This document shows positions 43,068-60,661 of a DNA stretch of 64,000 bases, in pieces. A model generated the notes under the pieces. The model worked only from the letters and a program-made list of their open reading frames with translations, was not told where the DNA came from and searched no databases. The number at the start of each line of letters is the position of its first letter. Positions within the stretch are counted from its first letter, which is position 1. The position numbers and the translations under genes were made by a program. Origin of the DNA: Butyricicoccus sp. Marseille-Q5471 (GTDB lineage: Bacteria > Bacillota > Clostridia > Oscillospirales > Butyricicoccaceae); the NCBI RefSeq assembly GCF_951230135.1, contig NZ_CATNVC010000010.1, positions 1 through 64,000 of the forward strand, in the 5' to 3' direction.

Positions 43068-43105
43068 AAAAAGGCTCTGAAACAGTGGTTTCAGAGCCTT
43101 TTTTT
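43068..43105 (+). terminator. Intrinsic terminator, shared between convergent genes
   Basis: AAAAAGGCTCTGAAAC pairs perfectly with GTTTCAGAGCCTTTTT around AGTG, with A- and T-rich flanks suitable for both strands. Confidence 0.9.
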
Positions 43106-43695
43106 CACCCTTCATTCGGTGCAAGCAGCAAGGGTTGCAGTTGATAGCCGTGCAGCGCGGCTTCAAGTGTCGCAGGGATTTGCACCATATCTGCAACAAG
43201 CGAGCAGGGTTTGGCGGTAGGCGCGTCCTGCCGAAGCGGTACAAAATAAAAGTGCTTACGGTTGAGAAGCGTGCCGATGTTGGCGGCACTGCCCGAAAGG
43301 GCGTCATTGGTGGAAACGGCGAGCAGTACGGGGCGCGCACCGCGAAGATGGCTTTTGACAGCCATGGTCACCGGCGTATCGGTGACGCCGTGCGCGAGCT
43401 TGGCAAGCGTGTTGCCTGTACAGGGTGCAACAATCAGCGCGTCGAACATCGCCTTAGGGCCGATTGGCTCTGCGGTGACGATACTGTCGATAATCGGCTT
43501 GCCGGTGGCCTCGGTTAGCCGTGTGCGCCATTCCTTGGCGGTGCCAAAACGGGTGTCAAAGGCACCTGCGTTTTCGGACAGAATCGAGGTTACATCAAAT
43601 CCGCGCGCCACCAAATCGTTAATGGCGGTCAGCGCACGGGCAAAGGTGCAGAAAGAGCCGGTCAGCGCAAAACCGACACGAATTGGCTGGGTCAT
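43105..43695 (-). CDS. dpaB: Dipicolinate synthase subunit B
   Basis: 196 residues. Flavoprotein-like fold with VGFALTGSFCTFARALTAIN at the N-terminus, IVAPCTGNTLAKLAHGVTDT in the middle and a VLLAVSTNDALSGSAANIG segment, as in SpoVFB. With DpaA it makes dipicolinic acid in the mother cell during sporulation. Its start overlaps the dpaA stop by four bases. Complete here, but its partner is truncated, so DPA synthesis would fail unless dpaA is restored. Confidence 0.92.
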   Translation of the reverse strand: MTQPIRVGFALTGSFCTFARALTAINDLVARGFDVTSILSENAGAFDTRFGTAKEWRTRLTEATGKPIIDSIVTAEPIGPKAMFDALIVAPCTGNTLAKLAHGVTDTPVTMAVKSHLRGARPVLLAVSTNDALSGSAANIGTLLNRKHFYFVPLRQDAPTAKPCSLVADMVQIPATLEAALHGYQLQPLLLAPNEG

Positions 43696-44234
43696 AGAAT
43701 GCCCTCCTCGGTAAGCATGGTGAGCACGGTGTCGCGTACGGCGCGTGCAGCGGAGAGCGGCGCGACCTTGCCCGGCAGAGACAGCGCATGCATGATGCGG
43801 CAGCCGGACACCACGGGCGCACCTGCTTCCACGCCGCCGGGCAGACTGGCTAAATCCATCACAAGGCAGGGCGGTGTCAGTTCAGACAGCTCAGCTGCGC
43901 CGAGCACCGGCGCGGGTACCGTGTTGAAAATCAGGTCAAAGCCGGACAGATGTCCGGCGAGTTTGCGGGTATCGAGCGAGGGCAAGCCTGCCGTCGCAAT
44001 TTTGGCAAAGTCCCGGGCATTGCGCGCGGATACGGTCACGTGTGCACCAAGCGCCTGCAGCTTATGGGCGAGCAGACTGCCCAGCCGTCCGTTGCCGATG
44101 ATGAGACACTTTGAGCCTTGGATGGTGTGCGGCGTCTCCTCCATTGCAAGCTGAATCGCGCCTTCGCAGGTGGGGAGAGTATTAGCGGTAGGAGTGACAT
44201 ACTGCTCGCGGCAGGCAGCATATGCTGTGAGCAA
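43692..44234 (-). pseudogene. dpaA: Dipicolinate synthase subunit A, C-terminal two thirds only, interrupted at its 5' end
   Basis: 180 residues from a TTG; intact DpaA is near 290. The retained part is well conserved: TCEGAIQLAMEETPHTIQGS, the dinucleotide fold CLIIGNGRLGSLLAHKLQAL, VSARNARDFAKIA, LIFNTVPAPVLG and VMDLASLPGG. The missing N-terminal ~115 residues should precede YAACREQYVTPTAN, but the frame closes just upstream, at the point where a small ORF and a large serine recombinase begin on the opposite strand. A 12-base palindrome lies at the junction. This is the arrangement of a gene split by an integrated element. The absence of other lesions suggests recent or reversible interruption. 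Confidence 0.8.
44216..44227. other. Palindrome at the dpaA/recombinase junction, candidate attachment-site core
   Basis: CAGCATATGCTG is a perfect 12-base palindrome exactly where DpaA similarity stops. Serine recombinases cut short, roughly symmetric sites with a central two-base overlap; AT at the centre would fit. The true core may differ. Confidence 0.4.
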
Positions 44235-44247
44235 GGAGGGGAGCGAT

Positions 44248-44379
44248 ATGACCGTCAGTCAGCAGGAACGTGAGGAATTAGAACGCCTGTTTAAAATCGG
44301 CATGCTCAAGGCGCTGTACGATGCGCACAAAATCAGCGAGCAGCAGTTTTGTCAGGCTATGAATGCCGTAGGCGCATGA
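44248..44379 (+). CDS. Small SHOCT-like protein preceding the recombinase
   Basis: 43 residues from ATG 44248 with AAGGAGGGG upstream. The sequence contains ERLFKIGMLKALYDAHKISE, resembling a short SHOCT-type helix pair. Such tiny ORFs commonly precede large serine recombinases in Clostridia, perhaps as accessory or directionality proteins, which is inference. It ends 17 bases before the recombinase GTG. Confidence 0.65.
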   Translation: MTVSQQEREELERLFKIGMLKALYDAHKISEQQFCQAMNAVGA

Positions 44380-44396
44380 GAGGAGGAAGTAGCGGC

Positions 44397-45992
44397 GTGG
44401 CGCTTCGCGTTGCGGCATATTGCCGTGTTTCGACCGAACAGGACGACCAGCTCAACTCGCTTGCCAACCAGAAACGGTATTTTGATGAGTACATACGCAG
44501 GCAGCCCGGCTGGCAGCTTGTGGAGGTTTATGCGGACGAAGGGCTGTCGGGCACGTCATCCAAAAACCGGCCGGCCTTTCAAAAAATGATTGCAGCGGCC
44601 AAACGAGGAGAAATTGATTTGATCCTGACCAAGGAGGTCTCTCGTTTTGCCCGTAATACGATTGATACACTGGCGCATACCCGGGATTTGCGAAAGCTGG
44701 GCGTGGGTGTTATCTTTATCAATGACAATATTGATACGCGTCAGAACGACGGAGAATTTCGACTGACAATCATGGCAAGCGTGGCGCAGGAGGAGAGCCG
44801 CAAGACCTCGGAACGGGTCAAGTGGGGGCAAAAACGCTCGATGGAGAACGGCGTTGTGTTCGGCTGCAATAATATGTATGGATACGATTTGCAGAATGGC
44901 AGGCTGCGCATTCGGCCGGATCAGGCTGAGGTGGTTCGGCTCATCTATCATAAGTTTCTCCATGAGGGGAAAGGGACGCACGTCATCGCGCGCGAGCTGT
45001 ATGAAGCGGGCATAGCTGCACCAAAGGCCAAGGATAAACCGTGGTCGGCAGTTATGATTTATCGTATTTTGAAAAATGAAAAATACTGCGGCGATTTGCT
45101 GCAGAAAAAATCCTATACGCCAAATTATCTCGATCACAAAAAAATCTTAAATCACGGCGCAGAGGAACAAGTTTATCTCCGCGCACATCATGAGGGAATC
45201 ATATCGCACGACTTATTTGAGCGCACGCAGCAGGAGCTGAAAAGACGCGCACCGTCCGCTGCGCAAGCGGCACGCTATTCCAACCGATACTGGTGTTCGG
45301 GCAAAATTCGATGTGGCAGTTGCGGAGAACGGTTCATGCCTCGAAGACGGACGCGTTCGAGCGGGTTTGTCTATCAATACTGGGTATGTCATGCAAAGGG
45401 GCATTTCGGCCGAAAAAAGTTGGATACGCAGGGGCGTGCAGTCGGATGCAGTATGCGGTCGATTCACCATCAGACCATTTGTGCGTGCATGGAGTACGTG
45501 ATTCGGAAGCTTCCGATCGATGTAGATGCATTGATTCGGGAGGTGCTGGCACTTCTGGAACGCGAAAAACCGCAGACGCACGAGATAGAGCAGCTGCAGG
45601 CAAGGCAGCAGCGGTGTATGCAAAAAAAAGACACCGTGCTTGATGCCTACTTTGAGCAGACAATCAGCAAGGAGGAACTGGAGCGGCTGCGCTCGCGGTA
45701 CGATATAGAGCTTGCACAGCTAGGGAAGCGCCTGTCGGTGCTGGCGTCGCAGCAGACAGCGGCACAGCGGACGAATGGCAGTGCGGATGAAGTGCGGTGC
45801 TTTTTGCAGCGTCAGGCATTCTGCGCGGAAAGCGTTTTTGGGGAGTTGCTGGAGCGGTTTACAGTATATGAGGATAGCGTGACGATAAAACTAAATGGTA
45901 TATCGGCCGTATTTCGTATCGGTTACACAACTAGCGGGCAAATGGAGCACTACCAAACAAATATCTTGTCATGCGACATGATAGACCTGTAG
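44397..45992 (+). CDS. Large serine recombinase (SpoIVCA/TnpX-like)
   Basis: 531 residues from GTG 44397, chosen for GAGGAGGAA upstream; an ATG at 44349 overlaps the previous gene and lacks a site. The resolvase domain shows AAYCRVSTEQDDQLNSL with the nucleophile Ser, YADEGLSGTSSKNRPAF, and LTKEVSRFARNT. The recombinase domain (YGYDLQNGRLRIRPDQAEVV), zinc ribbon (KIRCGSCGERFMPRR) and C-terminal coiled coil follow. These enzymes integrate and excise elements at att sites; relatives excise skin-like elements from sporulation genes. Transcribed away from the truncated dpaA. No phage genes follow; the type IV pilus operon comes next, convergent. Confidence 0.92.
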   Translation: MALRVAAYCRVSTEQDDQLNSLANQKRYFDEYIRRQPGWQLVEVYADEGLSGTSSKNRPAFQKMIAAAKRGEIDLILTKEVSRFARNTIDTLAHTRDLRKLGVGVIFINDNIDTRQNDGEFRLTIMASVAQEESRKTSERVKWGQKRSMENGVVFGCNNMYGYDLQNGRLRIRPDQAEVVRLIYHKFLHEGKGTHVIARELYEAGIAAPKAKDKPWSAVMIYRILKNEKYCGDLLQKKSYTPNYLDHKKILNHGAEEQVYLRAHHEGIISHDLFERTQQELKRRAPSAAQAARYSNRYWCSGKIRCGSCGERFMPRRRTRSSGFVYQYWVCHAKGHFGRKKLDTQGRAVGCSMRSIHHQTICACMEYVIRKLPIDVDALIREVLALLEREKPQTHEIEQLQARQQRCMQKKDTVLDAYFEQTISKEELERLRSRYDIELAQLGKRLSVLASQQTAAQRTNGSADEVRCFLQRQAFCAESVFGELLERFTVYEDSVTIKLNGISAVFRIGYTTSGQMEHYQTNILSCDMIDL

Positions 45993-45995
45993 AAA

Positions 45996-46035
45996 AAACA
46001 AAACGGACGCTGTGTAATCAGCGTCCGTTTTGTTT
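45996..46035. terminator. Bidirectional terminator between the recombinase and the pilus operon
   Basis: AAACAAAACGGACGCTG pairs perfectly with CAGCGTCCGTTTTGTTT around a six-base loop (17 base pairs). Confidence 0.9.
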
Positions 46036-46049
46036 GCGATGAATAAGGG

Positions 46050-49000
46050 TTAGCGTAAGGTCAGCAGACCCAGTTTGCGCAGTTCAAGTTTGGCGCTGCC
46101 GTCATAGATGCTGTCGCCGATGGTCGTCACAACCCGTACATATAGTGGCAGGGAAGAATCTGAGCTACCGCCAAAGGCCTGCAGCACTTCGTCGCTCAGG
46201 TAGGCGGTGTACAGCACACCGCTGCGCAGTGACGTCCCTTCGACAGCCTGTCGATCGTTCAGGTAAATCGGAAGCGTGACCTTCTTGGCATTCACCACGA
46301 CACCCTCGGTCAGCTTGACCGAAGGGGCGGAATCATCCGCGTAATAGAACTCAACTGCAACAGATTTATTGGTGGCGAGGTTGGGGTCGGAGATGCTGAA
46401 GGTAATTGCCCGGTCTGCAGCAGTGGTTTCGCTGCCCACCAGCACCGAACCGGTGTAGCTGTTGCTGCTGCTGTACTCCATTGGAAGGAGGAAGTAATCA
46501 ACTGCTGTGCCGACGGAGGACTCAAACGCTACGGTGGGGTTTTCCGCCCCGGCGCGGTAGGCCGCGATCATCGTATTGACGAACAGCTTGGCTTCTTCCG
46601 CACTATCGGGGTCGAAGTGACCGGCACCGGAATACGTAACATTGCCCTTGTTGTAGATGTAATAGTTGTTGAGCGCATCATTATAGTGGGCCGTATAGTT
46701 GTTTTTCTCTCCGTTGCCGGGGTCGGCAAGGCTGTACCACACGACGATATCATCCGAATTCATATTGAGCTGATAATACTGTTCGTGTGTTTGCGCAACC
46801 GACAGGCGGGAAGAACCGTTGAGGTTGTAGGGGAAGGTCGTAATCTGCCCCTGATTCACCTGAGATACATATTTGGTAAAGCTCTGTGCACCACCGCCGC
46901 TGTATCGACCATCTGACGTGGGCAGAAGTAGCGATGAAGTGCGGTAACGGGACAGGTTGTGTGTGGTATAACCCTGTGTCTGCGCAAGCAGCGTTTTTCG
47001 GCTACTGCCCGGCTGATAGGCAATAGAGTAGCCGGCCTTGACAAGTGCGTCGAGGGATGCGCCGGAATAGCCGCTCGCCACCGTACCGCTGCCGCGGCTC
47101 AGACCAAGCTCCTTGTAAATCGGCGAATACTTAGAGAAACCATAGGTGCTGTCCACTACGCCATATCGATCCAGGCCGACCAAGTTGCGTAGAATCGCGT
47201 TAAAATAGTAGGCAGAGTACCAACCGTGATTAATCTGCTGTGCTCCGGAGCTGCTCGAACCGGGATAATAGGAATAGGTTTGGGGCAGATTCGCGTTTGA
47301 GGTCGTATCGTGGGTAAACAGAATGGCCTTTCCGCTTTTGATGTAATTGGAAACAGCATTTGCAACCGTCAGATTCAGACCGTCACCGTTTTCTTTAAAG
47401 CCGTAGGAGTCACCGAAGCCGAGGATGAGCATATCGAAGCTGCCCAGATATGCGGTCAGTTCCTCAGTTGTATCCAGTTTGCCATTCCCGTTTTTGTCGA
47501 ATGTGCGCTCTGCGCTGCTCAGCGTCCATGCTCTACCGGATCTGTTCTGCCCAATGTTCATTTCACTTACTGTGTGGGTGTTGATTTGAATATCATACAC
47601 ACCCTTGGCACGAAGGTCGTTAAATAGGGCGGAATAAGTGCTGCTCTCTGCAAGAGAAAAGGTTCTCCTTGTCTGTTCGGAATAGGAAGTGACCTGCAGA
47701 ATATTAATGGAAATCATTTCGTTTGCTTGAGGCTTTAAATAGGTGTAGCCCACCTGCGAAGTATGCGTGCGTTCAGAACCGACCTTGATTACCTCGAGCC
47801 TCCAAGGAATAATGCCGCTGAAGCTTTCCGGCAGCTGTCGGGTGAGGGTATAGGTCACTCCGGCCATGAGTTCACCCGAAGCGACCGCTTTACCGGTGGA
47901 GGCATTGACGATTTGCAAATCAGTGAGTTCTTCGCTTGCAATATAGCGTCCGTCTGCGTTCTGATCCATGAACAAGCTGGTAAAATAGCGGGTGGATGCG
48001 GGTGTGCCGTCCGTTGGGTTTGCAATGGTAAAAGTATAGGACAACGTTCGCTTATTCTGGTCAATCAGCGTGGTTTGGAGGGCGCCTTGGTATTCGCCGG
48101 GCTTTAATTCTTGGCCGTTCGTATCTTTGGCAAAAACAATGCTCGGTTTGGAAAGATTTAAGTACTTGAGCACAATGTTTTTCTGCTGTGCGGCTTCGGT
48201 CGTTGACAGTACGTTTGTGCTGGACAAAATGCCGGACAGTGTTTCATAGACGATGGAGCAGTTGTCCACGCGTTTTGAATTGACCACATTACCTGCGGCC
48301 GGAATGGTAACAGACGTGCCGCCGGTGTTCTGCGTCACCTGCCAACCGGAGGAGACGGTGTAAGTTCGGCTAGCAAGTGCCCCGTAGCTATTGACGACGA
48401 TGCAGTAATATCTACCGGGTTCAGTTACAGTTATGGTGGAATTAGAGCTAAACCGGTAACCATCCTGATACCATTGTAGCGAAGCACTTTTCGGTGATAC
48501 GCTGGAAGAAAATTGTATACCGCTAGTGGTGACTTGGGGAGCATTCACGCTTAGCAAGTATTTCCAATTGTAATCGTAATCCCCGCTCGTTGGCGAAACG
48601 GACAGACCACCTGAGGATACGGTAACGGTGTTACTCTTGCAGGTATAGGTCTTGCCGTCTACCGTGATGGTAGCGGTGCAGTAATAGCTGCCAGCCGATG
48701 GGGTAAAGGAATAGTCGGACCCGGTGTAGACGGGGGGCTGACCATTGTTCTTGTACCAAGAGTAGGTGACGGCTCCGCTGCCGCTCGGGACACTGGAAGA
48801 GACAGCATTCAGAGTAACTTGTCCATAGTAACTGTAGGAACCCGATGCGGTAACGGAGAACTGACTGGCTTGATGGCCGTCGGAGAGCAGATTGGAGGAG
48901 ATGATGACCGGAAAGCCGGAGGTCACAAAGTCCATCAGCTCTGATTTCTTGTTATAGGTGATATCGTTGCCGGAAAAACGGAATTTAGTGGAAGAAGCCT

Positions 49001-51110
49001 CTTGAATGTAATATTCATTGCTATAATAGTTCTTTGATTTGTTATAGTCCGAATCCAAAAGACCAGTAAGATTAAGACCCGAAGAATAGGTGTCTCCAAT
49101 GCTGGTATAGAGCATGCCGTTCATATTATCGCTGTCATTATAAACTGTAGTTCTGTTGTCGCCGGAGCCGGTTGTATTAAAGCCATCCAGACTGGAGCCG
49201 AAGTATACCATATCATATTTTTCATTGATATCTTCGATTTTACCGATGAATTCCGCGGTGGACATATGAGTGATATTAATCGAGGTCACACCGCTGTCGC
49301 TCGGCAGCCAGTCCCGCACCATCGCTTCGGTCAGCATACCGTTGAGGCTCTTAGAAGTATTGCTGGTGCTTGTAATGGTCAGCGGCTCGATGTCCAGTAC
49401 ATCAATCGAGGTCTTCTTGTTCTGAATACGCTGACCGCGGTAGTTGATGATATACCGCATACAATTGCCCATCGTAACTTCGGCGGGCAATAGCTCTTCG
49501 GAGGGTTTGTCGCGCCGCAGGAAGTTCTCATACTTAATTTCATTCATTACCGAATAATAGCAATCGCCTTCTGCGGCGGATAGTGAACCGTCAAAAGCGG
49601 TGGGCAGGTGTTTGGTGATTAAAGCGGAACGAGAATTATCGGGTGCGAAGCTGTATACACTTCCCGCGACCATGGCCGAGGATTGAGAGCCGGCCAACGT
49701 GAGAACGAGCGCTTGCAGATTGGTCTGTGTTGCATTTTGCAGACGTTGGTCGAGCAGAACCGGAAGTCCGTCCCGCTGCACTGCAGTTTGCAGGCGTGTG
49801 CATACGGCCGTGGTCAGGTCGTTGCCGCCGGTATATGAATTGACAAGGGATGTCATGGGGGAGGTGGGGTCAAAACCTGCCGAGAGCACGAGCAAATCGG
49901 CGGTGGCGAGCTGATCCACGGTCACCTTGCCCGCAAGTAGATCCTGCGGGGTTACCGAAATCACCTGAATGGAAAAACGGTTGGTATCCGATTCGTCGAG
50001 CACATAGTTTAGAAACCAGTTATTATTGGAATATCCGCCGGTCACATAAATTTGGCTATATGCGACAGGGAATTTTTCATTGCCGGATGCACTGTAGGCA
50101 TAACTGCCTTTCCCATCCCCCACATAGACATAGCCGCTGATGGTCATGGTGAAATAACCGAAGCCATTGGCGACCGGCTCAAAGCCGGAGGATACTGCAC
50201 GATAGGGATGCGCCGCATCACGAACTGCGGAAGGAGCGGCAGTATCGGTAACATAGTAATATGCGGTATCTGCATCCAGTGAAAATCCAGTGTCACCAAG
50301 CGTGCCCTTGTATTCGTAGGCGGGGATGGTCTGCGTGTCAACACTGCCGGGAGTCATCGGTTCGGTCACTGTGATTGTCTCATACATGGCTTTGCCCATG
50401 TAACTGGCCTCGTTTGCTTCCAAATCAGACAAATCTAGCTGCGCAAACACAGGTTGATAATAATAGTAGGAGCCGTCAGTTGAAGTATCCGCAGCAGTAT
50501 AAACAAAATGCTGAATGCTCTGCTGATAGTCACCGGTAGCGCCGGGGAGCAGCGTCGGAGTACTGTTTTGATTGAAGGATCCCTGATTGGCGCCCTGATA
50601 GGAGAACGTGCCGGTAATCGGTTCGGCGGCATTCTCAGTGCGAGGCTGCCCGTCTTGATCCAGCAGTGCTATGGTCTGCGCACCGGCAGGGCGGGTGACC
50701 CAAGGCAGCGTCTCGGTATAACTGACGCTGCTTTTGAGTGGGGTATCGGTTCCGCTGCTCAGCAGACCGGCATCTCGAAGCGAGGTGAACAGCTTGTCGG
50801 CATAAGCCTTGCGCGCAGTGCTGCCCTCGGTGGAGGCGAGCACGGTTTGCCAATTCGCCGTCGGCTCCTGCCCCTTGACGTAGTAGCCGATGCTGCCGGT
50901 ACCTGCCTGCGGCGTGAGCTCTACAATGGTAAAGGGAGTGCCGGAGGAGGCTTTTTCGTTCTTGATGGTCTCGATGTGCTCAAGAGACTCATAGCTTGCA
51001 GCACCGGCCAGATTGGACTCTATCATCAGAGATGCACAAAGTGCGGCCACAAGAAGCAGCGCGGTCAGGCGTGTCGCGGCTTTTTTATGTTTCATACGGA
51101 GGTTCATCAT
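46050..51110 (-). CDS. Very large secreted protein at the end of the type IV pilus operon (DUF5057-like)
   Basis: 1,686 residues with an N-terminal signal peptide (ATRLTALLLVAALCASLMIE, cleavage near AGAAS). Two similar halves, around residues 340-720 and 1150-1560, each contain an open alpha/beta domain with segments such as LLVLSAGFDPTSPMTSLVNS and LILGFGDSYGF plus KAILFTHDTTS, recalling the DUF5057 family and glutamine-amidotransferase-like folds. An Ig-like repeat pair lies near residues 760-900 (TYSWYKNNGQPPVYTG, SLQWYQDGYRF). Calcium-type loops DKNGNGKLDT and DQNADGRYI are present. No sortase motif or C-terminal membrane anchor. Last gene of the pilus operon, so probably a pilus-tip or pilus-secreted adhesin. 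Confidence 0.8.
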   Translation of the reverse strand: MMNLRMKHKKAATRLTALLLVAALCASLMIESNLAGAASYESLEHIETIKNEKASSGTPFTIVELTPQAGTGSIGYYVKGQEPTANWQTVLASTEGSTARKAYADKLFTSLRDAGLLSSGTDTPLKSSVSYTETLPWVTRPAGAQTIALLDQDGQPRTENAAEPITGTFSYQGANQGSFNQNSTPTLLPGATGDYQQSIQHFVYTAADTSTDGSYYYYQPVFAQLDLSDLEANEASYMGKAMYETITVTEPMTPGSVDTQTIPAYEYKGTLGDTGFSLDADTAYYYVTDTAAPSAVRDAAHPYRAVSSGFEPVANGFGYFTMTISGYVYVGDGKGSYAYSASGNEKFPVAYSQIYVTGGYSNNNWFLNYVLDESDTNRFSIQVISVTPQDLLAGKVTVDQLATADLLVLSAGFDPTSPMTSLVNSYTGGNDLTTAVCTRLQTAVQRDGLPVLLDQRLQNATQTNLQALVLTLAGSQSSAMVAGSVYSFAPDNSRSALITKHLPTAFDGSLSAAEGDCYYSVMNEIKYENFLRRDKPSEELLPAEVTMGNCMRYIINYRGQRIQNKKTSIDVLDIEPLTITSTSNTSKSLNGMLTEAMVRDWLPSDSGVTSINITHMSTAEFIGKIEDINEKYDMVYFGSSLDGFNTTGSGDNRTTVYNDSDNMNGMLYTSIGDTYSSGLNLTGLLDSDYNKSKNYYSNEYYIQEASSTKFRFSGNDITYNKKSELMDFVTSGFPVIISSNLLSDGHQASQFSVTASGSYSYYGQVTLNAVSSSVPSGSGAVTYSWYKNNGQPPVYTGSDYSFTPSAGSYYCTATITVDGKTYTCKSNTVTVSSGGLSVSPTSGDYDYNWKYLLSVNAPQVTTSGIQFSSSVSPKSASLQWYQDGYRFSSNSTITVTEPGRYYCIVVNSYGALASRTYTVSSGWQVTQNTGGTSVTIPAAGNVVNSKRVDNCSIVYETLSGILSSTNVLSTTEAAQQKNIVLKYLNLSKPSIVFAKDTNGQELKPGEYQGALQTTLIDQNKRTLSYTFTIANPTDGTPASTRYFTSLFMDQNADGRYIASEELTDLQIVNASTGKAVASGELMAGVTYTLTRQLPESFSGIIPWRLEVIKVGSERTHTSQVGYTYLKPQANEMISINILQVTSYSEQTRRTFSLAESSTYSALFNDLRAKGVYDIQINTHTVSEMNIGQNRSGRAWTLSSAERTFDKNGNGKLDTTEELTAYLGSFDMLILGFGDSYGFKENGDGLNLTVANAVSNYIKSGKAILFTHDTTSNANLPQTYSYYPGSSSSGAQQINHGWYSAYYFNAILRNLVGLDRYGVVDSTYGFSKYSPIYKELGLSRGSGTVASGYSGASLDALVKAGYSIAYQPGSSRKTLLAQTQGYTTHNLSRYRTSSLLLPTSDGRYSGGGAQSFTKYVSQVNQGQITTFPYNLNGSSRLSVAQTHEQYYQLNMNSDDIVVWYSLADPGNGEKNNYTAHYNDALNNYYIYNKGNVTYSGAGHFDPDSAEEAKLFVNTMIAAYRAGAENPTVAFESSVGTAVDYFLLPMEYSSSNSYTGSVLVGSETTAADRAITFSISDPNLATNKSVAVEFYYADDSAPSVKLTEGVVVNAKKVTLPIYLNDRQAVEGTSLRSGVLYTAYLSDEVLQAFGGSSDSSLPLYVRVVTTIGDSIYDGSAKLELRKLGLLTLR

Positions 51111-51178
51111 ATACCTGCTCCTTTCTGTTCCTGCACGCAGGACAACACCGCATGATTGCGGCTTCGCTGTCTCTTGCC

Positions 51179-51700
51179 CTAGGTGCCGCCGACCAGTACG
51201 GTCGGGTGGTTGCGCAGTGCAATGGTTTGCGTTCCGGTATAGGATTTGGTCTGCCGCTGAAACGTAAGCTCCAGCGTGATTGATTTTGCCGTAGTAGCAT
51301 CGGTTGCAATGTTTGCAGAGAAGTCGGTTAAATGCTCGGCGAGCAAATCAGCGGCGGTCACAGTGCTTGCGGGATCGCCTGATCCGAAATAAAGGCACTG
51401 ATTTACGGAATCATACTGAAAAACGTAAAGAGTGCGGTCGCCTGAAGCTGCCGTTTGGATGACGGACAACGTGTCGGCTGCGTCATCCCATTCGATACTG
51501 TCATTGCAGTCGAGCAGATACGTCTGCAGCTGTGCCAGAGCAAGCTGAGATTCATATTGCAGGCGCAGTGTGTAATTGACGGAACTGTAAGTACGCGCAC
51601 CGGTGGACATAAATCCCATGGCCGCCAGTGCCAGAATGCCCATGATGGCAGAGCCGACAATCAGCTCCACCAGAGTAAAGCCCTTGTTGTGATGTTTCAT
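51179..51700 (-). CDS. Type IV pilin-like protein (minor pilin, PilW-type)
   Basis: 173 residues. Prepilin leader MKHHNKG then FTLVELIVGSAIMGILALAA: cleavage after Gly7, Glu5 of the mature chain present. The C-terminal globular domain ends in FQRQTKSYTGTQTIALRN and has a cysteine pair region around LLDCND/NQCLYFG. One of four pilin-like genes between pilO and the giant secreted protein, the usual place of minor pilins that start assembly and form the tip. Confidence 0.88.
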   Translation of the reverse strand: MKHHNKGFTLVELIVGSAIMGILALAAMGFMSTGARTYSSVNYTLRLQYESQLALAQLQTYLLDCNDSIEWDDAADTLSVIQTAASGDRTLYVFQYDSVNQCLYFGSGDPASTVTAADLLAEHLTDFSANIATDATTAKSITLELTFQRQTKSYTGTQTIALRNHPTVLVGGT

Positions 51701-51714
51701 ATCCCGGTACCCCC

Positions 51715-52227
51715 TTATCGGTTCATCCGGTGGTAACCGGTAGAAGGTGTGAGCGTGATAGAGCGACTGCCCACAGTGATTGCAGTGCAGTATTCATTGC
51801 CCGTCCAGAAGAAATCTTCCGAGCGATCTGCGGCCTTGCGCAGAGGGAGGAATGCACCGGTCTCCCGGTCAAACGCCAGACATAGGCTTTGCGTTTCTGA
51901 AATGGCAGGACTGACAGCTCCGGCGCTGAAGGTGAGGTCGAGATTGTCCGAGCCCAGCTTTTCTTCGCCGCGCGGCGAGCCGTCGGTATAGACTGCGCCA
52001 TAGTAGTCACCGTTCTTCACATACAATCGGAGATAGGGTGATTTTCCGCCGCTTAGAGTGGTGACCCGGCATTGCGAGAGCAGCGCATCAATGCTACTGA
52101 CACATTTACGGGCGCGGCTGGAAGAAACAGTGGAAATGGACATGCCTGCCGCCGTGGCGAGAATGCCCAGAATCGCGATGACCACAATCAGCTCGATCAG
52201 TGTAAATCCTTTGTAATTTTGCTTCAT
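51715..52227 (-). CDS. Type IV pilin-like protein (pseudopilin)
   Basis: 170 residues from the ATG of MKQNYKGFTLIEL with AAGGAGG at nine bases; an earlier GTG-type start at 52248 lacks support. Prepilin cleavage after Gly7, then FTLIELIVVIAILGILATAA with Glu5. The globular part includes RKCVSSIDALLSQCRVTTLS. 14 bases from the next pilin gene. Probable minor pilin. Confidence 0.88.
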   Translation of the reverse strand: MKQNYKGFTLIELIVVIAILGILATAAGMSISTVSSSRARKCVSSIDALLSQCRVTTLSGGKSPYLRLYVKNGDYYGAVYTDGSPRGEEKLGSDNLDLTFSAGAVSPAISETQSLCLAFDRETGAFLPLRKAADRSEDFFWTGNEYCTAITVGSRSITLTPSTGYHRMNR

Positions 52228-52253
52228 AGGCCATCGCCTCCTTTTCAATCAAG

Positions 52254-54317
52254 TTAGTTTTTGGACCAGTTTCGGAACGCAACCAGGCTGTCCAAACTCC
52301 AGTTACTGCTGCCGCCGCCGACGGTATTGCCGCCCTCGGTAACGCCGACGTTCAGGAAGTCGCTGAACTGCTGACCTGCCTCGTTTAGTCCGGTGAATGC
52401 ACCGATAACTTCTTCTTCGTTGGATACAACGGCATTGACCGAGCCGGTCATCGTGATGGTATTGCCGGAAATAATCAGTCCGCTGAAGTCGCGGTGCACG
52501 GTCACATTGCCGGTCGCGAGGATGACACGCACCGTGTCGGGCGTGTCGCTGTTGATGGTGTAATCGCCGCGCACGATGAGTGCGACTGGTTGAAAAACAC
52601 CGTTTTTATCCTGATAAAACCACGTTTTGCCTTCTGCAAGGTCGGCAAGTGCAGTGCCTTTCACCAGATAGTCATAGGGGTTGGTCGCTGTGGTGGTGCT
52701 GTTGTTCGCGGACAGGGTGACGCACAGCTGACCATACATTTTGCTGAGCTGAGAAGCGGTGGTCGTCAAGCTGTCGGCAGGAACGTACTCGCGCAGTGCG
52801 TAAGCATCGGTATCCGCATTTTTGACCAGCGTATAGCCAGAGGTCTGGGTGCTGCCGAGCGCGGTGGAAAGAGTGGTGTACATTTCCAAGTATTCGGTGA
52901 GTTGTGCCTGATTTTGGGTGAAGTAATCCTTAAAATGGCGGTTAGCATCCTCCACCGTGGGGAACTTCATAAAGTAGTAGTAAATCTTCTGATGGGCACC
53001 GTTTACACTGAGTATCACGGGTTGGGGCGTTACACCATAGGCGCGCAGCGCCGAGCCGGACCGCAGCGTGACCGTCGGCGCGGGTTCACTGGTGCCCAGC
53101 GGAAGCGGATTGCGGGCTACACCCTCCAGCTCGCTGACGGGAATGAGATACGCCTGCTGATTGCTCTTAACGGAAACGGATTCGCCCATAAGCACGCTGC
53201 CGTTGACGACGGAAGGACTTACCGAGCCGGTTACAAAGCTGTTGCCGGCCAGCATCAGACGTTTAGCATGAGAAAGGTCAAGCGTGGTATCACGGCCGTT
53301 GATGAGAATCGCACTGCTTTTCGTGGCGTCGGTCAGGCTGCTGCCAAAACCGTAGTAGCTGCCGTTTAAGTAGACGCTTGATTGCGTGCCGTCAAGCGTG
53401 AGGTCATCGGCCACGTAGGCCGTGCCTTGCAAATTGAGCGTGCCTGTCGAGTCCAGCACGATGCGGTTGGCCCATAAGTTTGCATTGTCTGCCACAGTGA
53501 AGCGGTAGCCATTGCGCGGGCCTGCATCCCGGATTGCAACATTGCCTCCGCAAATCAGCGTGCCGCCCTGAATGGTCAGTGAATTGCCGGCGGTGCTCAG
53601 GTCAATCCGTCCTGCGTAGGCACTGCCGGTGATGTCGAGCGTGCTGTTGCCAATGGTCTGCTCAAGCGACTCCTTGGCGATAACGGCAAACTGAGGCAGG
53701 CCGGAAATGCTGTATTCCGAGAACAGGTAGTAGAAATCCGGCATACGGATGATGATGTCGCTGGTAACTGTTTCGGTCAGATCGTTATGACTGCAGGAGA
53801 CACTGACGTTTTTCAGCGTGATGACGCCGCCTGAATAGCGCGCGTCCCGCACGCCGGAGGTATCCACCGTGGCATCGGCCGGAGCGGTCAGAAAAGTGCT
53901 TAGCACGTTGGGGTTGTAGGTGTAGATGCCACCGCCGACCGGCGCGAACAGCGCGCTGCCACCGGCGTTTTTCCAACTCCAAACCGCTTTACGAAACTGC
54001 TCCTGAAACTGGGTGGTCATATCGGTGGTAGCGTAATAATGGCTGTAATTTACAAGCGCATCCTGATACGCGGCAGCGATGGATTCGGTTACCACCTGCT
54101 GTACACCGGCTTGAATCTCAGTCATGGCAGAGGCGGCATCATAAAAGGTTTCCTTGCCCTGACGCTCCGTGACCTTCATCAGGAAGCCGGTGTAGGACAT
54201 GTACAGCAGGGTAGCGCCCAGAATGGATACGAACAGCATGCACACCAGCACGGTGACGATGCCGGAACCCCGGTTGTCACGCAGGGCATTCAGGCGCTCT
54301 TTCCAGTTTCGGAACAT
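52254..54317 (-). CDS. PilX-like pilus protein with large repetitive beta domain
   Basis: 687 residues from the ATG of MFRNWKERLNAL with GGAGG upstream. Instead of a canonical Gly-Phe site it has NRGSGIVTVLVCMLFVSILG, the PilX-type N-terminal helix. Residues ~190-400 repeat short beta strands (STLDITGSAYAGRIDLS, NSLTIQGGTLICGGNVAI, TLNLQGTAYVADDLTLDG) in a right-handed beta-solenoid-like pattern, and more follow near the end (FSGLIISGNTITMTGSVN). Much larger than normal minor pilins. Likely a tip-proximal or surface-exposed pilus subunit. Confidence 0.82.
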   Translation of the reverse strand: MFRNWKERLNALRDNRGSGIVTVLVCMLFVSILGATLLYMSYTGFLMKVTERQGKETFYDAASAMTEIQAGVQQVVTESIAAAYQDALVNYSHYYATTDMTTQFQEQFRKAVWSWKNAGGSALFAPVGGGIYTYNPNVLSTFLTAPADATVDTSGVRDARYSGGVITLKNVSVSCSHNDLTETVTSDIIIRMPDFYYLFSEYSISGLPQFAVIAKESLEQTIGNSTLDITGSAYAGRIDLSTAGNSLTIQGGTLICGGNVAIRDAGPRNGYRFTVADNANLWANRIVLDSTGTLNLQGTAYVADDLTLDGTQSSVYLNGSYYGFGSSLTDATKSSAILINGRDTTLDLSHAKRLMLAGNSFVTGSVSPSVVNGSVLMGESVSVKSNQQAYLIPVSELEGVARNPLPLGTSEPAPTVTLRSGSALRAYGVTPQPVILSVNGAHQKIYYYFMKFPTVEDANRHFKDYFTQNQAQLTEYLEMYTTLSTALGSTQTSGYTLVKNADTDAYALREYVPADSLTTTASQLSKMYGQLCVTLSANNSTTTATNPYDYLVKGTALADLAEGKTWFYQDKNGVFQPVALIVRGDYTINSDTPDTVRVILATGNVTVHRDFSGLIISGNTITMTGSVNAVVSNEEEVIGAFTGLNEAGQQFSDFLNVGVTEGGNTVGGGSSNWSLDSLVAFRNWSKN

Positions 54318-54351
54318 ATGCCGTTCCTCCTTTCTCAAAATCGGGACGCCG

Positions 54352-55572
54352 TTACTGCAGCTTGGTGGTATGGAAAGAATAAATCGGATCTCCGCTGAAA
54401 TCGCTTCCGGCAGGATAGAGATCCACGGTCACCTGATACAGACGGTTGCGCGAGGTCTTGTCTACCAACGTGCCAGACAGGTTGCCGGTGTAGCTGACAT
54501 AGGTACTGCGGTAGATATTGAATCGCACGGTCGCAATGCTTGTTTCATCATCCAGCTTGACTGCGGCATTGGACAGGATAGTCGCACCGGCATTCGGTGC
54601 GCAGGTCTGACGCAGGTCAATCTGCGCACGGTATTGGTTTTCTGCACCGGCCAGTTCGGTATCACTGAGCGAAGGGTCGCGCTGCTTGACGAGAAACAGG
54701 GTGAAGGGAATGTTGCTTCGGTTGTACACGGTAATCAGGTCTGCGGTTTGGCCGCGCTGTGTGTACCACGGATAGTACAGCAGATAGATGTCCGGAGTTT
54801 TGCCGCCGGACAGATCGAAACCCTGCGGGAAGAGGGACATATGCGTGTCCGCTTCCTCAAAAGATCCACGCACGGTTTCGGTGGCATCCAACAGTCCGCC
54901 GCCCGCATCGTACAGGTGCTTTTCATAAGTATAGCGGTATTGATATCGGTAGGTAAGTTCCGCAGACAGCTTGCCGTCCGTCTCGGTTGTATCCAGTATG
55001 ATTTCACGCGAGATAACTGCACTACCACGGTTGTAGGAGCCGTCAATGGTCAGCAGGTGCTGCTCAAAAGCGTCCCAAGAGCGGGTGTCGACATCGTCGC
55101 TGCCGTGCACGATGGGCTGCGCATATACCGCATCCATCGCGGAGTAGTTGGTCACCGGAATATCATTGATTGCGGCATAGCCGCTGTCTGCGCTGAGCGT
55201 GGCCATAGCGCTGAATTCAGTAGAACCGGAGGTGATACCGGTCACGCCGATGTGATAGGAGTCCGCGCGGTAGCTTTGCGTGTTTGCGTCGGCGGTGTAA
55301 CCGGTTCCGTCATAGGTGTAAAAACCGGCGCTGACACCGTGCAGCGCGTCGCTTGGATTATTCAGCAGGTCACTTAAGCTGGCGGCTTCGATGGATTCCG
55401 CAACATTTTGCGCGGCCAGCGTAGCGTCGCCCAGTTTGCGGCTGCGGGCGGCCGTACCGGCAGAGGTAACAAAGGTTTGCAGCAGCGGAGTCACGACGAT
55501 GCCGAGAATCACGATGGCAATGAGAAGCTCTACCAGAGAAAATCCCTGATTGCTGCTATTTTTGCGCTTCAA
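54352..55572 (-). CDS. Type IV pilin-like protein (PilV-type, large)
   Basis: 406 residues from a TTG (55572) with AAGGAGG eight bases upstream; a start at 55599 is less likely. Prepilin motif MKRKNSSNQG then FSLVELLIAIVILGIVVTPL. The ectodomain is long and beta-rich, with SFEEADTHMSLFPQGFDLSG and AENQYRAQIDLRQTCAPNAG. Its place, between pilO and the PilX-like gene, fits a minor pilin in the priming complex. Confidence 0.87.
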   Translation of the reverse strand: MKRKNSSNQGFSLVELLIAIVILGIVVTPLLQTFVTSAGTAARSRKLGDATLAAQNVAESIEAASLSDLLNNPSDALHGVSAGFYTYDGTGYTADANTQSYRADSYHIGVTGITSGSTEFSAMATLSADSGYAAINDIPVTNYSAMDAVYAQPIVHGSDDVDTRSWDAFEQHLLTIDGSYNRGSAVISREIILDTTETDGKLSAELTYRYQYRYTYEKHLYDAGGGLLDATETVRGSFEEADTHMSLFPQGFDLSGGKTPDIYLLYYPWYTQRGQTADLITVYNRSNIPFTLFLVKQRDPSLSDTELAGAENQYRAQIDLRQTCAPNAGATILSNAAVKLDDETSIATVRFNIYRSTYVSYTGNLSGTLVDKTSRNRLYQVTVDLYPAGSDFSGDPIYSFHTTKLQ

Positions 55573-55605
55573 GGCCGCCGCCTCCTTCCTGCGAGTCATT
55601 CAGAA

Positions 55606-56262
55606 TCAGGTTGTGCCGAACAAATCGGAGACACCCTTGCTGGTTTTGGGCATGATGGCAGGCTCATAAACCGCACCGTCCCAATTAATATAGTACTTGG
55701 AAATGCTAAAGCTGCCGGACAGGCCGCCGGTCTCGGCGTTATAGCTGAGAGAAACAGAGTCCAGTGCGGTGCGCTGCCTGCTGTCGTACAGATATTGGAT
55801 GCCCTGCTTGAGCTGAGGATAGTTGAGCGTGCAGGTCATGACCACGCCTGTGCGGTAGGCAGATAAATCCGCCCGTTTCAGTTCACCATCCTGCTCAACA
55901 TCACAGGGAAATTCGAGTAGCAGTCCGGGCTCGTCGAAGGACACACTGTCCATCGTCAGGCCGACCTTCTTTTCCATGTCCAACAGGTAAACCAGAAAGT
56001 CTTCGTTTTCAATGTCCGCAGGGTAGTGCGTCAGCTGCTCGGCGATAGCCGTGCGGGAGTCCTCAATGCCCTGCTCGTAGGTGGCGAGGTTCAGGTATTG
56101 CTCCTCCAATGCGGCGAGCTGTGGCTCCAGCTCGCTGATCGCGGTATGAACTTCCGCCGATTTCTCCTGATAGTGGGTGAACATTGTGAAATACAGCAGC
56201 AGAAAAATAAGCAGGCCAGCCAGTATGAGCAGCAGCTTAATATCGCGTTTGGAAATCTTCAT
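55606..56262 (-). CDS. pilO: Pilus inner-membrane assembly protein PilO-like
   Basis: 218 residues. One N-terminal membrane helix (LLLILAGLLIFLLLYFTMF), then a coiled coil (EVHTAISELEPQLAALEEQY) and a ferredoxin-like C-terminal domain, the PilO/GspM layout. With PilM-PilN it forms the alignment complex linking the motor to the pilin platform. 15 bases downstream of the PilM-PilN gene. Confidence 0.8.
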   Translation of the reverse strand: MKISKRDIKLLLILAGLLIFLLLYFTMFTHYQEKSAEVHTAISELEPQLAALEEQYLNLATYEQGIEDSRTAIAEQLTHYPADIENEDFLVYLLDMEKKVGLTMDSVSFDEPGLLLEFPCDVEQDGELKRADLSAYRTGVVMTCTLNYPQLKQGIQYLYDSRQRTALDSVSLSYNAETGGLSGSFSISKYYINWDGAVYEPAIMPKTSKGVSDLFGTT

Positions 56263-56277
56263 GTGTTGCTTCCTCCC

Positions 56278-57963
56278 TTATTCCGCAGGTGCTGCCGGCG
56301 TTTCAGCGTTCGGCTCTGCTGCGTTCTGCGTTTCCGCGGTTCCCCCGGCGGCGGCCTGTTCTGCCGCGGCTTGTGCGGCGGCGGCTTCGGCAGCGGCTGC
56401 CTCGGCGGCGGCATAGCCGCAGGTAAGAGTGAATGAGGCCGTGGTCAATCCGGTATCGTCGGCAGACTCGGTGATGGTGCCGACTGTGATATTGGAGATG
56501 CTTTCAAAGGTGCGCATCTGGTCGATGACCACAGCGGCCTCCTCCATACCGGGGGTGGTGACGTTCATCGTCACGCCATCCGCACCGCACACGGCGGAGA
56601 GCAGCTGGATGCTCGAGGGCATCTTACGCTCCATTTCCTCCAAAAAGTCGACCAGTTCGGCGTTCGGCGTTTCAGAATACCCGTTTACCACGGAGAAGTT
56701 ATCGGAAAACTGCTGATATTCGAGATAAGTATTATAGGTCTCGGATACGTGAGACAGCTCGCTCATGCGCTGCTGAATTTTATCCTGTCGGTTGACGGCG
56801 AGCAGATAGCCGACCACGGAAGCGATGGACATGCCTACCGCAACGACAACGCACAATCCGCAGATGACAATGCCGGAGGTCAGCGAATCGTTCTCGGCTT
56901 TCCCCTTTCCGGCACGTCTGCGCTGACGCAGTTCCTCGGGCAGTAAATCAAGGGGGGACACCAGACTGCCGATGCAGGAAATATAGGCGGACACACCCTC
57001 AATGGAATTTGCCACAAATTCTACGCCGGATACCTCGGTCAACAGCATGGTCTCTTCGCCCAATTCTTCAGCAACCATGCGCTGCAGTCCTGCAATTTGT
57101 GAGCATACGCCCATCAGCACGACTTGCTCGGCGGTTTCGTTCACGCGGCCGGACTTGAAAAAGTCAGCACTGCGGGCGATACCGCCAACCAGACGGCTCA
57201 GGCAGTCCGTGCGGTCTTCCTCGGAGAGCAGGGAAGAGAGCCAGTTCTCATCAGAGGTCTGCTCCAGTGTGCTCAAGTACTCTTCATCCGGCCGTCCGGC
57301 GGCGTGCAGCGCGGCAGTCACCAAATCATGGCCGCCGAAGCTGAAGCTGCGCTGCAGCAAAAGCAGACCGTTCTGCATGAAGGTGACCATGGTGTGCGTC
57401 AGCCCCACATCCACATACATAACAACCTTGGTGCTCGGCACACCGCGCAGTACCTGATACTGGCTGTTGCCGCAGTAGTCGATGGCGCTCAGAATAAGGT
57501 CGGCCTGCTCGGCCAGACGCATGTAGCCTACGAGCAGCGGCTTAGGCGCCGCCATGACGAGCACACGGCAGCCGGGTTCGGGTTCGCCGGTGCGTTCGAG
57601 CAGGTTGTAAGCCACCTGATAGTTGCTCATGTCCACAGGGAAGTAGTCCTGCGCGTTGGTCTCCACCACGGATTTCAGGCGGTTATCCTTCACGGGTGGC
57701 AGCGTAACTTCGCGGCTGGCAACCTTGGAGGAGGACAGTGTGAAGGTCACGTTTTTCACATCGGAAGCACCGTGTTCGGCCAGTTCCGCGCGCAGACGTT
57801 CAGCCAACGCTTTGGGATCGACAATCTGTCCGTCGCTGACGGTCTGACTGGGCGTTTGAAACAGGAAGCTGTCCTGAATCTGATAATTTTTGCCCTTTTT
57901 GATGGAGCAGCACACCTTGACCAGGTGATCGCCCACCTCAATATTCAATACTTTTGCGGCCAT
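56278..57963 (-). CDS. pilM: PilM-PilN fusion protein
   Basis: 561 residues from the ATG of MAAKVLNIEVGDHLVK. Residues 1-345 are the actin-like PilM (SSSKVASREVTLPPVK, YVDVGLTHTMVTFMQNG, SFGGHDLVTAALHAAG). A membrane helix (IVICGLCVVVAVGMSIASVV) at about 370-400 is followed by a coiled coil and PilN-like domain (DFLEEMERKMPSSIQLLSAV). The tail of ~45 residues is Ala/Glu/Pro-rich. In most bacteria PilM and PilN are separate and joined through the PilN N-terminal peptide; here they are one chain, followed by a separate PilO. Confidence 0.85.
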   Translation of the reverse strand: MAAKVLNIEVGDHLVKVCCSIKKGKNYQIQDSFLFQTPSQTVSDGQIVDPKALAERLRAELAEHGASDVKNVTFTLSSSKVASREVTLPPVKDNRLKSVVETNAQDYFPVDMSNYQVAYNLLERTGEPEPGCRVLVMAAPKPLLVGYMRLAEQADLILSAIDYCGNSQYQVLRGVPSTKVVMYVDVGLTHTMVTFMQNGLLLLQRSFSFGGHDLVTAALHAAGRPDEEYLSTLEQTSDENWLSSLLSEEDRTDCLSRLVGGIARSADFFKSGRVNETAEQVVLMGVCSQIAGLQRMVAEELGEETMLLTEVSGVEFVANSIEGVSAYISCIGSLVSPLDLLPEELRQRRRAGKGKAENDSLTSGIVICGLCVVVAVGMSIASVVGYLLAVNRQDKIQQRMSELSHVSETYNTYLEYQQFSDNFSVVNGYSETPNAELVDFLEEMERKMPSSIQLLSAVCGADGVTMNVTTPGMEEAAVVIDQMRTFESISNITVGTITESADDTGLTTASFTLTCGYAAAEAAAAEAAAAQAAAEQAAAGGTAETQNAAEPNAETPAAPAE

Positions 57964-58050
57964 AGCGGAAATGGTCTCCCCTCTGTCGTGGAATATGTTT
58001 ATCAATGAAGCTCAAATGAGCGGGATTGCAAAGTTAAATGCGGTGAAAGG

Positions 58051-58806
58051 TTAAAAAAGTCCGAAATACCAACCGAGCATTGCGTCTCCCCAGAGAAGGG
58101 AGAGCATTACGCCCGCGGCAAGATAAGGCCCGAGCGCCAAATCACGGCCTGCGCCGCACAGCTTCATGCGGGCAACATGGATGATTGACCCGAGCAGGCA
58201 GCCCAGAAAAAAGGCGAGCAGATTGAGCCGAAATCCCAGAAACAGGCCGCAGCCGGCCATCAGCTTCACATCGCCGCCGCCGACAGCCGCGCCGCCGGAC
58301 AAAAATAGAATCAGCAGCAGCAGGCCGCTGACGGTGATAAATCCCAGTAAATGACTGGGCCAATTGTCAAGATGTAAAAAAAGCCGGAGTACGCCGAGGA
58401 CGGCGATGGTAATCGTCGTCCCGGGCGGAATCTCACGGGTGCGGGCGTCGATGACCGACGCCACAAGCAGTGCTGAGGCAAGAAAACAGCTCAGCAAGGT
58501 GTCGAGCGAAAGCCCGAAGCGGTGGTAGACCAGCATCCAAAGCACGCCGTTTGCCGCCTCAATTAGGGGATATTGGACGGAAATGGAGCTGTGGCAGCCG
58601 GAACACCGACCCCGCAGGGCAAGCCAGCTAAACAGGGGAACCAGCTCCCACCAGTTCAGCTGTTTGCCGCATGTGGTGCAGTGGGAGGACCCAAAGACGA
58701 CACTTTCCCCCATCGGAATGCGCAGGATGCATACATTGAGAAAGCTGCCCACGGTAATGCCGAAGAGGAATACGATTATGAAGTTGAGCATCGTCAGAAA
58801 GTCCAT
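58051..58806 (-). CDS. pilD: Prepilin peptidase (type 4, A24 family)
   Basis: 251 residues, six to eight membrane helices. The N-terminal methyltransferase-side loop has CTTCGK and CRCSGC-type cysteines (zinc). Catalytic aspartates lie in VIDARTREIPP and GGGDVKLMAG. It cleaves and may methylate the pilins encoded around it. 26 bases after the major pilin gene. Confidence 0.93.
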   Translation of the reverse strand: MDFLTMLNFIIVFLFGITVGSFLNVCILRIPMGESVVFGSSHCTTCGKQLNWWELVPLFSWLALRGRCSGCHSSISVQYPLIEAANGVLWMLVYHRFGLSLDTLLSCFLASALLVASVIDARTREIPPGTTITIAVLGVLRLFLHLDNWPSHLLGFITVSGLLLLILFLSGGAAVGGGDVKLMAGCGLFLGFRLNLLAFFLGCLLGSIIHVARMKLCGAGRDLALGPYLAAGVMLSLLWGDAMLGWYFGLF

Positions 58807-58832
58807 TTAGAGAGTTCCTTTTGTGTTTGAAA

Positions 58833-59294
58833 TTAAGCTGTCCATGCACCGGTAGCGCCGGTAGAAGTAACAGTAATGGTGTATGTTGCACATTTGGTTC
58901 CAGCGGCCTCAGCCTTTGCAGCGGTGCCCTTGTTTTGTATTTTGATTTTATTCCAATTGGGATCTGCGGCATTAAGTGCAGCTTCAAGGTCGCTATCAAT
59001 ACTAGTAGAAGTTACGCCGGTGGAGGTAACGGTAATTGTGCTTCCGGTGACATCCTTGCCATCTTCACCACACTGAACAATACCTACCTGCACTTCGTGC
59101 AACAGCGTAGCCACGGTGTTTTGGTCAGTGGACCAGCGGGATTTATCAACATACTTAATGTACTGCGGAGCCAGAACAGCGGCCAGAACAGCGATAATCG
59201 CGATAACGATAATCAGTTCGACCAGAGTAAAGCCCTTATTCTTATTCTTACGATTCTTCTGAAGCTTGTTCATCTGATTAACCATAAAGTTCAT
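58833..59294 (-). CDS. pilA: Major type IV pilin
   Basis: 153 residues. A long, basic leader of 21 residues ends KNKNKG, then FTLVELIIVIAIIAVLAAVLAPQY with Glu5. The globular domain is small, Thr/Ser-rich (STITVTSTGVTSTSIDSD), with two Cys (IVQCGEDG, GTKCATY) that could form the C-terminal disulfide loop. Placed between pilC and pilD, as expected for the major subunit. Identity as the main subunit is inference from position and size. Confidence 0.88.
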   Translation of the reverse strand: MNFMVNQMNKLQKNRKNKNKGFTLVELIIVIAIIAVLAAVLAPQYIKYVDKSRWSTDQNTVATLLHEVQVGIVQCGEDGKDVTGSTITVTSTGVTSTSIDSDLEAALNAADPNWNKIKIQNKGTAAKAEAAGTKCATYTITVTSTGATGAWTA

Positions 59295-59386
59295 GAGTTT
59301 CGTCCTCTCTTTATTTGTGATTTTTTTATAAACCCGGCCGCGCCCCTTCGCGCCCGATGGTTCACTTAGTTAAATGCCCTGTCGGT

Positions 59387-60604: not shown

Positions 60605-60661
60605 AGTATCACATCCAATATTCAAAATGGGAAAAGAGGAGCGTGCCGCAAACAGACAGCA

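Follow-up and report, generated by a model that had tools for sequence, protein, structure and literature searches.

A probable skin-type element interrupts the dipicolinate synthase gene dpaA in Agathobaculum

Organization of the dpaB-dpaA locus

The window analysed here comprises bases 1-64,000 of contig C10 (NZ_CATNVC010000010.1; 96,459 bp) in the 2.94-Mb draft genome of Butyricicoccus sp. Marseille-Q5471 (handle G000), and its subject is the dipicolinate synthase gene dpaA, which lies there in part, beside a large serine recombinase gene. On the minus strand, dpaB, encoding dipicolinate synthase subunit B, was intact at 43105..43695 (196 amino acids; NF006161 259.9 bits, TIGR02852 236.7 bits). 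The adjoining 3' part of dpaA (43692..44175, minus strand) extends from a CC dinucleotide shared with the 5' part to the stop codon, reads P-T-C-E-G-A-I-Q... and has no internal stops; in profile searches its match was restricted to family-model positions 128/131 to 286/291. An earlier note on this DNA had described dpaB as whole and the C-terminal part of dpaA as free of any further lesion, and both statements were borne out. It had placed the end of DpaA similarity at about 44,220; coding homology in fact breaks at 44174-44175, and the TTG at 44234 therefore lies inside the element.

A whole-genome search with TIGR02853 located the first half of dpaA at C10:67330-67722 on the minus strand (model positions 3-137), on the contig and strand of the 3' half. 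The search for a 5' fragment proposed in the note was thus successful and the fragment lay beyond 46 kb, one of the two possibilities that the note had given, the missing part amounting to about 131 codons instead of about 115. Based on protein homology, the dpaA 5' part was assigned to C10:67346-67737 (minus strand, beyond the window); it matched NF006162 with 63.3 bits. No second dpaA, which the note had named as telling against its proposal, emerged from this whole-genome search, the remaining four matches to TIGR02853 being weak (13.7-21.1 bits) and covering the NAD-domain part of the model only. Without excision, the 5' half continues as a frame of 179 amino acids with an unrelated tail.

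Junction and predicted attachment sites

The junction was located from protein homology. In coding-strand orientation, the end of the dpaA 5' half reads ...AACGCCGT-CC-CTGTCGC and the start of the 3' half ...AATACTCT-CC-CCACCTGCGAAGG. The common CC is the proposed crossover dinucleotide, situated at 44174..44175 on the C side (minus strand, the first two bases of a proline codon) and at C10:67344-67345 on the N side (minus strand, beyond the window). The intervening element, 44176..67345, measures 23,170 bp in all, with 44176..64000 inside the window. Joining the halves at CC in silico gave an in-frame DpaA of 291 amino acids (...LNAVP/TCEGAIQ..., junction at the slash), which matched NF006162 with 244.2 bits over positions 3-291 of 297, compared with 242.3-256.2 bits for eight intact genes of the genus. 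The reading frame was restored, again in silico, by exact joining at the core common to both attachment (att) sites, which is CC or at most TCCC. An exact-repeat scan between the two end regions found matches of at most 8 bases, none of them at the junction. The stretch 44215-44245, suggested earlier as a possible core, instead holds a -10-like motif and the ribosome-binding site of the recombinase operon.

The left arm of the predicted attP site is the stretch adjoining the CC, above 44175 (minus strand). Arms were compared at the 18 loci with both halves placed (L163 was dropped and single-half loci were not used). Centred on CC, the predicted attP had a mean of 13.0 complementary positions of 26, against 5.2-8.0 for 16 other centres, and the rebuilt attB a mean of 7.9 of 26. 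Over attP positions 5-25, arms from the same locus scored 11.7 and arms swapped among loci 9.4, with none of 5000 shuffles as good; individual loci ranged from 7 to 21 complementary arm positions of 24.

Recombinase operon and putative promoters

The large serine recombinase gene (44397..45992, plus strand) encodes 531 amino acids, with a likely GTG start at 44397 and the stop at 45992. The divergent serine recombinase that the earlier note had recognised beside the dpaA 3' part was confirmed by matches to the Resolvase (128.6 bits) and Recombinase (89.1 bits) domains, both over their cut-offs; the recombinase zinc ribbon scored 22.1 bits, below its cut-off of 25.3. Residues Y8, R10 and S12, the last being the catalytic serine, were invariant in an alignment of 12 recombinases. 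The enzymes of G007, G009, G013, G017 and G021 lack most of the coiled-coil-like stretch that follows the zinc ribbon in longer relatives. In other serine integrases this region restrains excision, and by analogy the short Agathobaculum recombinases may be excision-biased enzymes.

Between the junction and the recombinase gene lies an open reading frame (ORF) of 43 amino acids (44248..44379, plus strand), a candidate directionality factor; a short ORF occupied this place in 12 of 12 split Agathobaculum loci. Its description as SHOCT-like could not be upheld, as seven peptide versions from Agathobaculum gave no Pfam SHOCT match at E values up to 10, nor a match to any other Pfam family. Recombination directionality factors have been reported for SP-beta and the skin element of Clostridioides difficile (PMC5595907).

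Upstream of the operon, a promoter-like site at 44196..44226 (plus strand) consists of GACATAC (44196-44202), 16 nucleotides and CATATGCT (44219-44226). The motif GCATANNNTR was found upstream of the recombinase operon at 12 of 12 Agathobaculum loci and in 18 of 41 upstream regions overall, where shuffles averaged 1.3 with a maximum of 4; from this count 17 of 58 regions, in which the start motif was not located, had been dropped. All of 19 dpaA genes (G011 not included) had the sequence CATANNNT upstream (shuffles averaged 1.6, maximum 5), often, as judged by eye, with AC some 16 bases before it; in G023, where the start is probably misplaced, it is 63 bases upstream of that start. In the source genome, the -10-like element CATAGACT upstream of the dpaA 5' part is at C10:67758-67765, beyond the window. 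These motifs were likened to the sigma-E and sigma-K consensus, and by this resemblance the site at the recombinase operon may be of the mother-cell (sigma-E/K) type. The -10 elements of the two sigma factors are very similar, and dpaA-dpaB is under sigma-K control in C. difficile (PMC3789822).

Distribution and evolution of split dpaA in Agathobaculum

The comparison set consisted of 25 Agathobaculum genomes, source genome counted; spoIVA was found in the source genome and in 20 of the 25. In 12 genomes the split in dpaA fell at one and the same codon (G000, G003, G006-G009, G011-G013, G017, G021, G024), in eight the gene was whole (G002, G004, G015, G018-G020, G022, G023), and no dpaA was found in five (G001, G005, G010, G014, G016), three of which are less than 85% complete. 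A split common to 12 of 25 genomes is therefore not a matter of chance. The comparison with relatives that had been recommended earlier revealed dpaA either whole or split with a recombinase, never short without an insertion. The halves shared a single contig in eight split genomes, separated by between about 2.5 kb (G009, G021) and 45 kb (G024), and were on separate contigs in G003, G006 and G013; in G011 contig ends interrupt the 5' half, the final portion of which stands at the start of the contig with the 3' half (locus L129). At all 12 split loci, a short ORF (37-53 amino acids) and then the recombinase followed inward from the 3' half, with inner starts used for the short ORFs of G003 and G006 and the G006 recombinase cut by a contig end.

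Both dpaA halves are under purifying selection similar to that on intact genes. The median ratio of non-synonymous to synonymous differences (pN/pS) was 0.248 in split species (55 pairs) vs 0.203 in intact ones (28 pairs) for the 5' half, and 0.267 (66 pairs) vs 0.251 (28 pairs) for the 3' half. The 3' halves of 12 species and the 5' halves of 11 were stop-free throughout. Since the relatives share the cut and keep both halves, dpaA is probably rejoined in spore-forming cells.

A midpoint-rooted DpaA tree of 20 species, many of its branches weak, required 2 changes for the split state, compared with a shuffled mean of 6.5 (0 or 1 of 500 shuffles were equally low). The branch holding the split group had 91/98 support, and 12 of its 13 members were split; the exception, G020, has dpaA whole, and a recombinase search at E 1e-30 found no match in it. 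The tree fits one arrival of the element and one loss (G020). Agreement between the DpaA and recombinase trees was partial: {G000,G024} was starred in both, and {G003,G011,G017} was starred in the recombinase tree, whereas the corresponding DpaA-tree group takes in the intact G020.

Proposed excision and alternative explanations

With both halves in order on one strand, in-frame rejoining and a recombinase present, the skin-like element in dpaA suggested by the earlier note was substantiated. We consider it highly probable that a skin-type element of 23,170 bp interrupts dpaA and is excised to restore the 291-amino-acid DpaA in the sporulating mother cell. The element is skin-type by its anatomy; the excision reaction, its timing and cell type, and the part played by the small ORF are inferred. 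Under this model, a promoter of the sigma-E/K type would activate the small ORF together with the recombinase in the mother cell, and the recombinase would join the two att sites at the shared CC, the element leaving as a circle. Sigma-K would then transcribe the restored dpaA together with dpaB, and dipicolinic acid would be made, the interrupted dpaA copy being inherited through the spore. Such a cut would be tolerated because the mother cell dies and the interrupted copy passes on via the spore.

Several observations weigh against this interpretation. The bases flanking CC are unlike at the two sites of the source genome, which leaves a shared core of 2 to 4 bases. The attP centre was first picked by eye from one locus (G165), and the arms were near chance (about 6 of 24) in G007 (7), G008 (8), G012 (8) and G013 (9). 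The species that supplied the 12 promoter motifs of Agathobaculum are related to one another, and outside the genus GCATANNNTR was present at only 6 of 29 loci. The cargo of the element looks chromosomal. Finally, sigG of the source genome is in pieces on two contigs, and the organism would be asporogenous if these cannot be rejoined.

Germline excision or reversible switching, as in active lysogeny or phase variation, is an unlikely alternative to removal in the mother cell only. Germline loss does seem to happen, given that G020 is intact amid split species and without a recombinase match at E 1e-30, and yin of Clostridium botulinum was both integrated and excised within one culture (PMC10747680). 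The rest of the group to which G020 belongs, 12 of 13 members, is nevertheless in the split state, and the motifs upstream of both the recombinase and dpaA resemble mother-cell promoters.

A reading in which a mobile element simply destroyed dpaA, leaving the halves as dead-gene remnants, is quite improbable in view of the stop-free 3' halves in 12 species and 5' halves in 11, the pN/pS values near those of intact genes, the recombinase operon kept at 12 of 12 loci, att arms that on average match locus by locus, and the clustering of the split state in one clade. In its favour are the large chromosomal-type cargo, the five of 25 genus genomes in which dpaA was not found (three of these less than 85% complete) and the lack of a directly observed excision. 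Finally, although a TTG codon opens a frame of 180 amino acids in the 3' half and the cut falls just before the NAD-binding domain, it is very hard to credit that the halves are separate polypeptides assembling into a working enzyme without DNA rearrangement, because the N-side sequence past the junction varies among species, the recombinase and att arms are kept, and inspection by eye revealed no conserved start site at the 3' half.

Other sporulation genes in pieces

In the source genome, cotJC was present as five collinear plus-strand pieces over about 83 kb (C1:205516-288993; loci L205, L212, L338), starting on C1 at 205516, 212897, 262180, 274758 and 288904 and corresponding to residues 1-35, 25-71, 65-136, 130-176 and 172-201 of the intact G022 protein. 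Each of pieces 2, 3, 4 and 5 is preceded, at 19-40 bases, by the end of a serine recombinase, and another follows piece 2. The only clear shared string was TCGCAGCAGA at junction 3; in the stretches compared, junctions 1 and 2 had no shared string of 5 bases or more and junction 4 only 5-base matches.

The sigG gene was cut after residue 96 in 23 of 25 genus genomes, with both halves found in 20, the 3' half only in G008 and G009 and the 5' half only in G015. It was whole in G020, and in G007 it reads 2 to 236 of 254. The pieces of the source genome are at C9:50737-51021 and C8:84141-84629. The string CCGATGA was found at 15 of 16 N sites and 17 of 17 C sites of the sigG halves, and pN/pS was low in both (0.146 for N halves of 16 species, 0.089 for C halves of 17). 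A recombinase was directly upstream of the sigG 3' half in eight of eight split loci checked; none was found at the whole sigG of G007 and G020. In G012 the halves are 112 kb apart in reversed order (C2:296939 and 408910), and in G010, a single-contig genome, they are on opposite strands (C1:1747354 and 2504338); simple excision therefore cannot restore sigG there. No recombined sigG attP was found in the 25 genomes, 12 of which had one match each, in all cases the N-side half-site. The TIGR02850 match was also seen to stop near sigG residue 236-243 in G004, G005, G006, G007, G021 and G024, and near 203 in G017, which suggests further cuts or divergent ends.

We put forward tentatively, as a possibility that falls short of being the likelier one, that Agathobaculum keeps sporulation genes in pieces (two for dpaA, five for cotJC, two for sigG) and assembles them by programmed multi-step rearrangement with serine recombinases. 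Reassembly of sigG would then call for an inversion or fission on the scale of the chromosome, which might take place in the forespore, and the system would be a counterpart of ciliate gene unscrambling in which recombinase lineages are largely loyal to one spore gene.

Split dpaA and related recombinases beyond the genus

A match to the dpaA model at E 1e-9 was obtained in 256 of 297 genomes of the order; the counts of split genes given here are lower bounds. Among 21 genome handles re-examined, at least four were split at site A, the codon cut in Agathobaculum (G071, G159, G165, G306), and at least eight at site B, at about position 245-255 (G102, G108, G141, G185, G213, G223, G279, G306), while seven of the 21 had a partial dpaA match only (G166, G217, G247, G253, G269, G300, G305). 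In G306 dpaA is cut at both sites, as is apparently the case in L148, L149 and L155. Recombinases of all four site-A cases scored 400-505 bits against that of the window and those of all eight site-B cases 92-121 bits; site B is served by a different recombinase group than site A.

Scanning genome contigs with the site-A recombinases yielded 76 loci, of which 57 were examined, the other 19 being more distant (L178-L189, L191, L193, L196-L200). A dpaA half was present in the fetched stretch at 39 of the 57 (13 of these from genomes already among the G handles), eight were at cotJC halves, four beside the C half of a gene of the glycoside hydrolase family 18 (GH18) type and six had no assignment. 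Targets were confirmed by Pfam as Mn-catalase (cotJC-type) at L160, L167, L190 and L195 and as Glyco_hydro_18 at L157, the remaining target genes being assigned by motif or by eye; the genes are named here CotJC and SleL/YaaH. Target genes clustered on the recombinase tree, with 9 changes against a shuffled mean of 17.3 and none of 200 shuffles as low; in this tree no weight is placed on L158 (branch length 10, badly extracted) or L194 (4.6). The GH18-type (SleL/YaaH-like) C half adjoins a recombinase of the same clade at L154, L157, L169 and L174, and a motif scan of these four loci found no GH18 N half. At least three viral contigs (L259-L261) carried a cotJC piece at a distance of 40 to 1,700 bases from a recombinase of this kind, and no dpaA half was found in viral contigs at E 1e-3 among the 80 loci kept. 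By eye, a similar-looking short ORF also precedes the recombinase in L134, L139, L141, L159, L165, L173, L177 and L258, one of which is a viral contig.

Relation to known systems

To our knowledge, programmed gene rearrangement in spore formers comprises a handful of cases. In this gut-bacterial group it looks like a lineage-wide habit, with one dpaA codon cut in 12 species and in other genera, a second site, and several cut genes per genome. Published elements interrupt sigK, spsM, spoVFB, gerE and yabG (PMC5595907, PMC10747680, PMC3789822, PMC5025042). A literature search whose coverage left out most subscription journals and bioRxiv preprints returned no element in dpaA, cotJC or sigG.

As with skin in sigK of Bacillus subtilis and C. 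difficile, a sporulation gene is cut by an element that encodes a large serine recombinase; skin has att sites with inverted-repeat half-sites and its excision restores the gene (PMC5025042). Unlike skin, the element described here targets an enzyme gene, the 10 cargo proteins scanned were without phage likeness, and its excision is a prediction. A further parallel is vfbin, which interrupts dipicolinate synthase in Bacillus weihenstephanensis and whose recombinase is expressed in sporulation (PMC5595907, PMC10747680). There the target is the B subunit gene spoVFB (dpaB), whereas in the present genome it is dpaA that is split, dpaB being whole. The same logic applies to other sporulation genes with gin in gerE of Bacillus cereus ATCC10987, described as non-prophage (PMC5595907), yin in yabG of C. 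botulinum V73 (PMC10747680) and SP-beta in spsM of B. subtilis (PMC4191935). The yin element is reported from one strain only (PMC10747680), in contrast to the dpaA cut common to 12 species of a genus, and here as many as three sporulation genes of a single genome are in pieces. In heterocyst-forming cyanobacteria, DNA elements interrupt nitrogen-fixation genes in the germline and are excised in a specialised cell type (PMC4874684), but phylum, genes and developmental programme are different there.

If our interpretation is correct, the sporulation ability of gut bacteria would not be readable from intact genes alone, as a split dpaA, cotJC or sigG would score as missing or broken. The loci would also be a source of natural recombinases with their att sites, and the persistence of an interrupted gene through speciation would become testable.

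Cargo of the element

Most of the element within the window (46050..63453, minus strand) is occupied by genes resembling type IV pilus or type II secretion systems, with two T2SSE ATPases, T2SSF, a prepilin peptidase, PilM and a prepilin-like protein; a DUF5057 protein of 1686 amino acids is encoded in the same stretch. The right part, from 63825 to beyond the window, holds a VWA protein, then a MATE transporter and a MarR-type regulator, followed by the dpaA 5' part. A Pfam scan of 10 cargo proteins found no phage-like proteins, either structural or for replication. Excision would strip the type IV pilus-type cluster from the mother-cell chromosome. A response regulator with a Spo0A_C domain was encoded inside seven of the 12 dpaA elements (G006-G009, G012, G013, G021).

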